A stretch of 39,369 nucleotides of DNA from an uncultured Roseibacillus sp. (lineage in GTDB: Bacteria > Verrucomicrobiota > Verrucomicrobiia > Verrucomicrobiales > Akkermansiaceae), in the NCBI GenBank assembly GCA_937949965.1, contig CALFBF010000155.1, forward strand, positions 1 to 39,369, written 5' to 3'. Positions 8,848 to 10,721 of this stretch are shown one piece after another. The first letter of the stretch is position 1; each line of letters opens with the position of its first letter. The notes under the pieces were generated by a model. It searched no databases and was not told where the DNA came from. It was given only the letters and a program-made list of their open reading frames with translations. A program made the translations under genes and the position numbers.

Positions 8848-9870
8848 TTATTGACCAAGGGCCGCAGTCCAACCGATGGACGCCAAGCCAATCAGGAAGA
8901 AAAGCCCCAGTGCTAACCAGATGATGAAGCGAGTCTTCATGATTGTGGAATAAAGGAAGAGAAGCTTCACGTCCATCATTGGGCCAAAAACGAGGAAGGC
9001 GAGTCGAGCTGCCGTGCGGGCTGCTGCCGGTGGTGCGAGGGTTGCGGCGATAAAGGCGTCGGAGGTGCTGCAAAGGCTGAGAAGGAAGGCGAGGAGCATG
9101 AAGGCTGCTGTCTGTCCAAAGACAGAGCCTTCCATGGATTCCAGCCATTCTGCTCCCGGTGCGATACCAACGTTGAAAAGAGCGGTAATAATGACTCCGA
9201 TCGTGAAGTAAACGCCCACGTCAGTGAAGTCTTTGAGGGCCGCTCGCATGGCAAGAATCAGCCGGTTTTCTCCCTCGTATTTACTTTCATCTCTCGCATC
9301 GTGATCGTGATGGCAGGGACCCGTGCTGCCACAGTCGTGGTGATGTTCATGATCGTCTTCGTGAGAGGCAGAAGACTCTGAGGAGGGTAGAACAGTGCTT
9401 TTGAGGATTCGTTCTATCGGGAACCGAAGTACAATCAGCCCCACAGTTACGGCGGCAAGATAGCCCAAGAGAACGCGAGAGAAGGTGAAAAATTCTGCTC
9501 GATCAGCCCAAGTCTCAAAATCAGGGAAAGCATTCCATGTGGAGAAAATGGTGATAGGATTGACGATGGGCGCTGCCAGCATATAGGCAAAGGCGCAGCT
9601 GACGGGCAGTCCTTTGGAGACCAAGCGACGAATGACAGGCACAACGGCGCATTCACAGACCGGTAGTAGGAGCCCCAGTAATCCTGAAACAAGAATCGCT
9701 GCCGTCTTATTACGAGGAAGCATACGCTCCATAGCACCTGTGGGGAGGTAAATCCCCAAGAACCCGGAGAGCAAAGTCCCTAACAGGATGAAGGGGGCCC
9801 CTTCAAAAAGAATCGATTTAAAGGCGATGGAAAAATTAACAAAATCATCCGGGGACACGCGGGAGAGCAA
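8848..9870 (-). CDS. Permease of the DUF318/ArsP family (PF03773 type)
   Basis: 340-residue integral membrane protein with about eight hydrophobic segments in two halves separated by a hydrophilic loop. The first half shows the family motif LLPVCECAVVPVIRRL (Cys72, Cys74) followed by AAPIVNPITIFSTW. The loop at about 168-195 is very rich in His and Asp with two Cys (HEDDHEHHHDCGSTGPC), a likely metal-binding stretch on the cytoplasmic side. Relatives export organoarsenicals or are uncharacterised. The start is a TTG at 9870; an internal GTG at 9858 is an alternative. It is divergent from the Sec-containing HMA protein, with 195 bases between the starts, so the two may share control and handle the same soft metal or metalloid. 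Substrate is inference. Confidence 0.85.
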   Translation of the reverse strand: MLSRVSPDDFVNFSIAFKSILFEGAPFILLGTLLSGFLGIYLPTGAMERMLPRNKTAAILVSGLLGLLLPVCECAVVPVIRRLVSKGLPVSCAFAYMLAAPIVNPITIFSTWNAFPDFETWADRAEFFTFSRVLLGYLAAVTVGLIVLRFPIERILKSTVLPSSESSASHEDDHEHHHDCGSTGPCHHDHDARDESKYEGENRLILAMRAALKDFTDVGVYFTIGVIITALFNVGIAPGAEWLESMEGSVFGQTAAFMLLAFLLSLCSTSDAFIAATLAPPAAARTAARLAFLVFGPMMDVKLLFLYSTIMKTRFIIWLALGLFFLIGLASIGWTAALGQ

Positions 9871-10065: not shown

Positions 10066-10644
10066 ATGAAACTCAAATTCGTATTCGCGATGATGGCTGC
10101 TGGCGGTCTCTTTGTTGCGCCTGCTCTTGCTGATCATCACGCTGATGACAAGAAGGCTGCAATGGAAGCTAAAGCAGAAGACTCGGTAGCTGCCTACGTG
10201 GTAGCTGCTAGTGGTGGTGGTTGAGGTGCTGCAAAAAAGGTCAGTTCGGCCTTAGGAACCCAATCTGGAGTTGCAACCGTTATTCTCTCAGGGCTTCGCG
10301 CTACTGTGATTATGGAGGACGGCTCAAGCCTTAGTGAAGCACAAGTGAAGTCTGCTATTGAGAGCAAAGGCATGACCTTTGTTTCCATGGAAAAAGCGGA
10401 ACTTACCCGTCCAAAGGCTGCTTATGAACTTGCCGTTACTGGCGCGACGTGAGCGATCAAAAACGACAAAGCCCGTGCGGCTTTGGAAAAAATCGAAGGA
10501 GTGAGCGGAGCTTATGTCAATAACGACATTGCGCTTCACTTCTCGGAAGATACTGAACTCGATGAGAAAGCTGTTGCAGCTGCGATCAAAGAGTTTGGAA
10601 TGAAAGTCAAAGGCTCCAAGAAAGTCGAAGAACTTCCATTCTAA
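10066..10644 (+). CDS. Candidate selenoprotein: exported protein with two HMA domains, each with Sec for Cys
   Basis: The frame runs from ATG 10066 to TAA 10642-10644 (192 residues) if two UGA codons, 10222-10224 and 10450-10452, are decoded as selenocysteine (residues 53 and 129). A signal peptide (1-22, ending APALA) is followed by two domains with the HMA beta-alpha-beta-beta-alpha-beta pattern. In domain 1 Sec sits in SGGGUGAAKKV; in domain 2 in VTGATUAIKND, followed by ARAALEKIEGVSGAYVN, very like the HMA helix and second strand. Sec takes the place of the first Cys of GMxCxxC; the second Cys is absent in both. The Sec residues are 76 apart, one HMA repeat. Hairpins resembling bacterial SECIS elements follow both UGAs. 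A weak ribosome site (AAGGG, 10051) precedes the start; an upstream ATG at 10006 would bury the signal peptide. Likely a periplasmic soft-metal binder. No sel genes lie in the window. A pseudogene is the alternative, but two disabling changes at equivalent positions, both UGA, are unlikely. Confidence 0.85.
10225..10260 (+). promoter_or_regulatory. Candidate bacterial SECIS element after the first UGA
   Basis: Directly after UGA 10222-10224. The upper stem is AAGGUC (10237-10242) with GGCCUU (10248-10253), six pairs including one U-G. The loop AGUUC starts 18 bases after the UGA and has G-U at positions 2-3. A lower stem GGUGCU (10225-10230) with GGAACC (10255-10260) pairs with one G-A mismatch, and the 5' side carries an unpaired GCAAA. 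Loop G and UGA-to-loop distance agree with the described bacterial SECIS model bound by SelB. Confidence 0.7.
10467..10485 (+). promoter_or_regulatory. Candidate bacterial SECIS element after the second UGA
   Basis: Perfect 7-bp stem CAAAGCC (10467-10473) with GGCUUUG (10479-10485), closing a five-base loop CGUGC. The loop begins 21 bases after UGA 10450-10452. Loop size and the G-U at positions 2-3 match the hairpin after the first UGA, although the primary sequences differ. Confidence 0.7.
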
Positions 10645-10669
10645 TTATTTGGGAACAACTTTCTGACAG

Positions 10670-10706
10670 TGGGCTCGTTGCTTTGTGCGACGAGCCCATT
10701 TTTTTT
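10670..10706 (+). terminator. Rho-independent terminator after the Sec-HMA gene
   Basis: Perfect 9-bp stem TGGGCTCGT (10670-10678) with ACGAGCCCA (10690-10698), loop of 11 bases, followed by eight T (10699-10706). It lies 26 bases after the TAA at 10642, which supports that TAA, not either UGA, as the true end of the gene. Confidence 0.93.
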
Positions 10707-10721
10707 GAACGAAGAAGTTCT

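Follow-up and report, generated by a model that had tools for sequence, protein, structure and literature searches.

Can a reading frame that is interrupted twice by UGA encode one functional protein, and if so, what would the two recoded residues do? The question is raised by a gene of an uncultured Roseibacillus species (Verrucomicrobiota, Akkermansiaceae; GenBank assembly GCA_937949965.1, contig CALFBF010000155.1, positions 1–39,369 of the forward strand); this whole stretch of 39,369 nucleotides is called the window below. The open frame lies at 10066–10644 on the plus strand, starts with ATG at 10066, ends with UAA at 10642–10644, and gives a protein of 192 residues with two tandem HMA domains when UGA is read as selenocysteine (Sec). 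Its in-frame UGA codons are located at 10222–10224 (residue 53) and 10450–10452 (residue 129), 76 codons apart. Direct reading of the frame confirmed this arrangement, which had been proposed in an earlier sequence-only reading of the window; the 52-residue stub that it expected from standard gene calling is also borne out, as the standard-code frame ends after residue 52. The gene almost certainly encodes a selenoprotein with Sec at both UGAs. The tandem double-Sec HMA protein appears to represent an undescribed selenoprotein family, Sec-HMA proteins as such being already known.

The pair of UGA codons is conserved across species far beyond chance. A first search of 98 genomes, the window's own included (E ≤ 1e-3), found the family in 26 genomes and returned 28 matches, 26 of them full-length; in all 26 full-length proteins, including that of the window, the two UGAs occupy the identical two alignment columns. 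The two weak matches (L035 and L036, E ~1e-3) contain no stops and are tandem HMA proteins with CxxC. In a sample of the order (386 genomes), 54 genomes gave 59 matches at E ≤ 1e-5, and the 50 matches that make up the family (E ≤ 4e-43), from 50 genomes, all have exactly two UGAs and no other internal stop. The remaining nine weaker matches comprise five without a stop, three with one UGA, and one with two UGAs. A class sample of 384 genomes yielded 19 matched genomes, namely 11 with family members carrying two UGAs, seven with weaker one-UGA matches, two of which have an additional stop, and one with an ATPase. The phylum sample (387 genomes) yielded four, i.e., three family members from the window's genus, its own included, and one ATPase. 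The order, class, and phylum samples overlap, and the reach of the family beyond the order is given by the class and phylum samples. Additionally, a scan of named genomes recovered 19 loci titled as Verrucomicrobiota lineages, with both UGAs present in 19 of 19, although 10 of these loci appear to coincide with genomes already counted. Named isolates with relatives of the gene include Roseibacillus persicicus KCTC 12988, Rubritalea marina DSM 17716, and Rubritalea profundi SAORIC-165. The spacing between the two Secs is nearly fixed (76 codons in 18 of the 26 proteins, 77 in 6, and 75 in 2), and invariant glycines adjoin both Secs (G50, G52, and G126). Conservation of this kind was the support that the sequence-only reading had hoped for, and the unrelated stops in relatives that it named as contrary evidence did not occur in the 50 orthologues.

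The protein sequence is under purifying constraint on both sides of each UGA. The ratio of nonsynonymous to synonymous substitution rates (dN/dS) was 0–0.32 in the 19 resolvable comparisons of 27 segment comparisons (nine pairs), with alike values before, between, and after the UGAs; the pair L023/L024, for example, gave 0.08, 0.06, and 0.06 for the three segments. The other eight comparisons yielded no ratio due to saturation or the lack of synonymous change, and the segment before the first UGA in L029/L030 has no synonymous and two nonsynonymous changes.

Both UGAs are followed by a candidate selenocysteine insertion sequence (SECIS) hairpin. Ungapped 48-base alignments starting from each UGA in 26 sequences revealed a seven-pair stem with a five-base loop, which begins 11 bases past the UGA at site 1 and 14 bases past it at site 2. 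The corresponding candidates in the window are located on the plus strand at 10236–10254 (six to seven pairs, loop AGUUC) and 10467–10485 (seven pairs, loop CGUGC); the outermost pair of site 1 is unformed in the window's genome (A-A). At site 1, 91.2% of the alignment cells are paired, changes on both sides of the stem occur at five of the seven pairs, and 24 cells show two-sided changes, compared with 7.2 in shuffled alignments (0 of 500 as high). Site 2 is similar, with 93.7% of cells paired, both-side changes at six of the seven pairs, and 37 cells with two-sided changes compared with 11.5 in shuffles (0 of 500 as high). The number of further pair types is unremarkable (125 and 317 of 500 shuffles as high, respectively). 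Because related rows can beat shuffles without any structure, and because the sequence is coding, we added a coding-aware null in which synonymous codons were shuffled within columns; 0 of 2,000 shuffles reached the observed pairing or the observed two-sided changes at either site, this null being, like the plain shuffles, uncorrected for the kinship of the rows. Sliding the 3' arm by one to three bases reduced pairing to 21–58%. The covariation tests were used in place of folding energy, which compared with synonymous shuffles is weak SECIS evidence at site 1 (mean z −0.53, 16 of 26 negative) and better at site 2 (−1.60, 21 of 26 negative). Loop positions 2–3 are GU in 25 of 26 sequences at site 1 and in 23 of 26 at site 2, resembling the loop GU of Escherichia coli fdhF.

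Most of the machinery for Sec insertion is encoded in the same genome, a draft of 2.73 Mb in 166 contigs with an estimated completeness of 90.6%. Of the selA, selB, selC, and selD genes that the sequence-only reading proposed to look for, three were found above their family cut-offs, i.e., tRNA-Sec (63.9 bits), selB (340.9 bits), and selA (460 bits). The absence of any selD above the cut-off in this draft counts against the selenoprotein reading; the better of two weak matches (56.8 bits) lies inside a 301-residue open reading frame (ORF) whose sequence we read as ThiL-like. Since the draft is only 90.6% complete, the missing selD is probably an assembly gap. All 10 relatives checked have selD, each gene with an in-frame UGA of its own, and this UGA could be read by position in nine of the 10 (all but L098, a shorter locus). 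A GU-loop hairpin is present in the minimum-energy fold of seven of these nine selD loci, its loop lying ~33 bases past the UGA versus 18 and 21 bases in the tandem Sec-HMA gene. Across the 98 genomes, selB (E ≤ 1e-60) is present in 42, and the family gene occurs in 25 of the 42 selB-positive genomes versus 1 of the 56 others (Fisher p = 3.8e-11, uncorrected for kinship). The lone selB-negative carrier (G041) has a selD with UGA, and its selB is therefore probably in a gap. Another genome of the window's genus (G002) has selB and no match to the family gene. The efficiency of UGA recoding in vivo is 30–40% according to the accessible part of one report (PMC4513850), and two UGAs in series would thus leave about 9–16% full-length product, suggesting that the cell pays for both Secs.

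The two Secs are located in HMA-type domains. The predicted structural model, compared using VIA-align, consists of two HMA folds with a beta-alpha-beta-beta-alpha-beta order, one covering residues 40–114 (10183–10407) and the other residues 117–188 (10414–10629). In the model, Sec53 lies in the loop that connects strand 1 of the first domain to its helix 1, and Sec129 stands immediately ahead of helix 1 of the second. The PF00403 profile scores 23.0 bits on the window protein versus a cut-off of 24.8, and matches 11 of the 26 members at E ≤ 0.01 (best 1.2e-7). In a search of known structures, the family profile matched HMA domains of CopA (E = 4.6e-9), ZntA (0.0011), and MerP (0.0066). Thus, the HMA repeats of the sequence-only reading are supported by the family profile and the model. 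The signal peptide that it placed ahead of them is judged by eye: residues 1–22 (10066–10131), MKLKFVFAMMAAGGLFVAPALA, end in ALA ahead of D and look signal-peptide-like, and a lipobox-like motif occurs near the N-terminus of some homologues (L022, L025, and L028).

Each domain keeps only the first ligand position of the HMA metal site, and it keeps it as Sec. Sec129 aligned on the first Cys in both printed alignments, each with Bacillus CopA, and the Sec of either domain falls in the first-Cys column of an 83-row domain alignment. The sequence-only reading had placed the Secs at the first Cys of GMxCxxC; that position holds, whereas the literal motif and the second Cys do not. The motifs in the window protein are SGGG-U-GAAKKV (Sec53) and TGAT-U-AIKND (Sec129), and Cys is found at U+3 or U+4 in 0 of 52 domains, U+3 being occupied by T (18), A (16), G (6), D (4), K (3), E (2), S (1), P (1), and I (1). 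The two-ligand pattern of PF00403 (CxxC, or U for C) is accordingly not present. Additionally, 23 of the 26 proteins contain no Cys past residue 31, and the three exceptions have one Cys each. The two Secs are therefore the sole thiol- or selenol-type residues of both domains in most mature proteins, and since the CxxC pair is gone, the protein cannot function exactly as MerP or CopZ do.

The family is separated from the other HMA proteins of the phylum, and its Cys counterpart was not encountered. In a domain tree built on 72 columns, in which many forks are unresolved, a supported branch (95/95) separates the 52 family domains from single-domain Sec-HMA, Cys-HMA, and Cys-tandem domains. The C-terminal family domains form one clade (100/97), and the N-terminal ones do not. 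On sequence evidence, this fits an origin of the family by doubling of a Sec-HMA domain. The sequence-only reading had expected Cys-containing homologues; no Cys orthologue of the tandem double-Sec family was found in the genomes searched, where only more distant Cys HMA proteins occur. Exchange between Sec and Cys does occur in single-domain relatives, as in TGVTUGGC (L175) versus TGVTCGGC (L176), with several such changes needed on the tree, and this exchange supports the Sec reading.

Other Sec-HMA proteins were observed alongside the family. Single HMA domains have UxxC in L153, L154, L171, L175, and L181, versus CxxC in L176, L182, L166, and L174. A further group of single-domain proteins from the same bacterial family (L145–L147 and L157–L164) begins with a signal-like stretch and carries a single UGA, placed within UxxxC (SGLVUAGGC, TGMTUGVGC); a hairpin follows the UGA in L145–L147, the three that were folded, and these proteins look like a second undescribed Sec-HMA family. 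One genome that also has the window family encodes another tandem Sec-HMA protein with UxxxC in both domains (L148, on G057:C47). Its two domains are sisters in the tree (100/99), and the tandem Sec-HMA arrangement therefore seems to have arisen twice. Another genome (G077) has six HMA matches with one UGA apiece on contigs C79, C31, C126, and C121, two of them adjacent on C31. Three tandem proteins with CxxC in both HMA domains (L035, L036, and L149) combine a signal-like start with an N-terminal stretch rich in Cys, and their genomes also have the Sec tandem.

The family differs from each known system with which it shares features. Tandem HMA domains are also found in CopA (1p6t and 2rml) and in the three exported-looking Cys tandems, but all of these have CxxC in each domain, and the Cys tandems group in a clade of their own in the domain tree. 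The single-domain Sec-HMA proteins of the phylum, with UxxxC or UxxC, share the signal-like start (by eye) and Sec at the first ligand position, but they have one domain, retain the second Cys, and fall on the other side of the supported branch. MerP is a single domain with GMTCxxC. The HMA fold is shared with it, whereas the window protein scores 14.2 bits versus the 92.55 of the MerP model TIGR02052 and no mer operon context was found: of the 26 large ORFs listed for the window, 10 were scanned, and none of these 10 is a mer gene. The UxxU metal-binding selenoprotein NF041115, called a putative mercuric reductase in reviews, shares an HMA-like domain and Sec at a ligand position; its 74-position model contains UxxU, whereas the two domains of the window protein contain a single Sec apiece (UGAA and UAIK), and the protein scores 20.8 bits versus a cut-off of 95. 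The MerT/CopZ fusion-like selenoprotein NF045683 shares Sec and a CopZ/HMA part but is a MerT fusion, and it is absent among the matches of the window protein at E ≤ 1. Five of the 26 family members were scanned with NCBIfam, and no model exceeded its cut-off. A search of plasmids with the window protein gave no match at E ≤ 1e-3, and two viral structure matches at E ≤ 0.001 were rejected as not meaningful (TM 0.28–0.29, rmsd 18–19).

Published surveys contain related entries. The accessible part of a 2026 review lists 119 prokaryotic selenoprotein families or subfamilies (PMC13188914), including NF041115 (UxxU), a Sec MerT, an ATPase with UxxC, and the SO_0444 transporter; no tandem Cys-free Sec-HMA protein is among these 119 entries as listed there, and a 2022 review (PMC9312934) shows similar entries in its accessible part. 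The Global Ocean Sampling (GOS) survey tabulates two Sec MerP sequences with zero Cys homologues and, in its accessible part, gives no motif (PMC2398784); compared by this table entry alone, they could be kin of the window family. No description of a tandem double-Sec HMA family appeared among the open-access papers listed in literature searches.

What, then, would the two Secs do? HMA domains carry soft metals, and a metal role with Sec as the ligand is therefore favored. We consider it probable that the protein is an extracytoplasmic soft-metal binder using two selenolates. The Sec codons, the SECIS elements, the fold, and the conservation are supported by computation, whereas export, metal binding, the kind of metal, and any clamp geometry are inferences. 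Decoding of each UGA would rely on a separate SECIS hairpin that begins a few bases after it, and the signal peptide judged by eye would direct export from the cytoplasm. In its mature form, the protein would consist of two HMA domains and a short linker, with one Sec in each loop that usually holds GMxCxxC. The bound ion may be Hg(II), methyl-Hg, Cu(I), or Ag(I). Since only one ligand is left per domain and Cys is missing from most mature proteins, the selenolates may each bind on their own or jointly enclose a single ion lying between the two domains. A more specific version, which we put forward tentatively and do not yet favor, is that Sec is obligatory here: outside the cytoplasm, two Cys-free HMA domains with one selenolate each would work jointly, either gripping a two-coordinate soft metal in a bis-selenolate clamp or forming a diselenide that can be switched. 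The family would then have arisen when a Sec-HMA domain was doubled along with its SECIS, and no Cys orthologue would exist.

The genes around the selenoprotein gene neither support nor refute a metal role. In the window, a permease of the ArsP_1/SO_0444-like type with a His-rich loop is encoded at 8848–9870 on the minus strand, divergent from the selenoprotein gene; it scores 88.8 bits versus a cut-off of 300, and its frame has no in-frame UGA. An operon or partnership with this permease as a conserved feature was ruled out by the 26 neighbourhoods, which span 7.7 to 18 kb, some on contigs without an upstream ORF. No conserved neighbour was found in the 26 regions, the family scans covering window genes only: the widest neighbour cluster (ORFs with a median of 498 aa) occurs in 7 of the 26 regions at varying distances, and the others in at most 5. 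Downstream of the gene, a terminator-like hairpin of 14 pairs, 8 of them GC, is followed by a T run at 10668–10707 on the plus strand, which suggests that the transcript ends there; three terminator-like sites were found in the region versus 1.2 expected.

The main rival to a soft-metal binder is a redox protein: outside the cytoplasm, its two selenols would pair as a diselenide or give it selenol oxidoreductase or peroxidase activity, and the HMA fold would serve only as a scaffold. Several of our observations favor it: with the second Cys gone, neither domain has a chelating pair of its own, and in 23 of 26 proteins the part past residue 31 holds no residues of this kind other than the Secs, whose distance from each other hardly varies. 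The majority of uncharacterized selenoproteins are also likely redox proteins according to the accessible part of the 2026 review (PMC13188914). In contrast, most members lack a resolving Cys, no thiol-redox family is among the Pfam and NCBIfam hits, no conserved neighbour offers itself as a redox partner, and HMA domains are known as metal binders. We therefore regard a redox function as a serious but rather unlikely explanation. A role as a sink, in which selenium would be stored or shuttled or toxic metal irreversibly buried with no dedicated partner for transfer, is improbable. The two Secs with usually no Cys, the terminator-like hairpin 3' of the gene, and the lack of conserved neighbours would suit such a role, whereas two Secs per ~170 residues would make poor storage, and the invariant glycines beside both Secs suggest a defined site. 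That the UGAs are not Sec at all has next to no probability despite the end of the standard-code frame after residue 52: an ordinary stop, whether in a pseudogene or a short 52-residue protein, is ruled out by the conservation of both UGAs in 50 of 50 orthologues, the low dN/dS downstream of them, and the SECIS covariation at both sites, and another residue under an altered genetic code is ruled out because UGA commonly serves as a stop in the window, closing 4 of the 26 large ORFs listed, and tRNA-Sec, SelA, and SelB are present.

Families of this kind may be easily missed. Standard gene calling stops at residue 52, and homology filters that depend on Cys relatives may drop the family; the authors of deep-Sep state, in the accessible part of their paper, that their own filter needs Cys relatives (PMC12013277). 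The same text holds that every known selenoprotein seems to have homologues with Cys, and an obligatory Sec without a Cys orthologue, if true, would run counter to that claim. If our reading is correct, the Verrucomicrobiota family would add to the 119 families of the review, as far as its accessible listing goes (PMC13188914), one with two Secs, usually no Cys, and no Cys orthologue in the genomes searched. Sec would then sit in a fold used for metals rather than redox, and it would become testable whether selection favors Sec as a metal ligand, beyond its role in catalysis.
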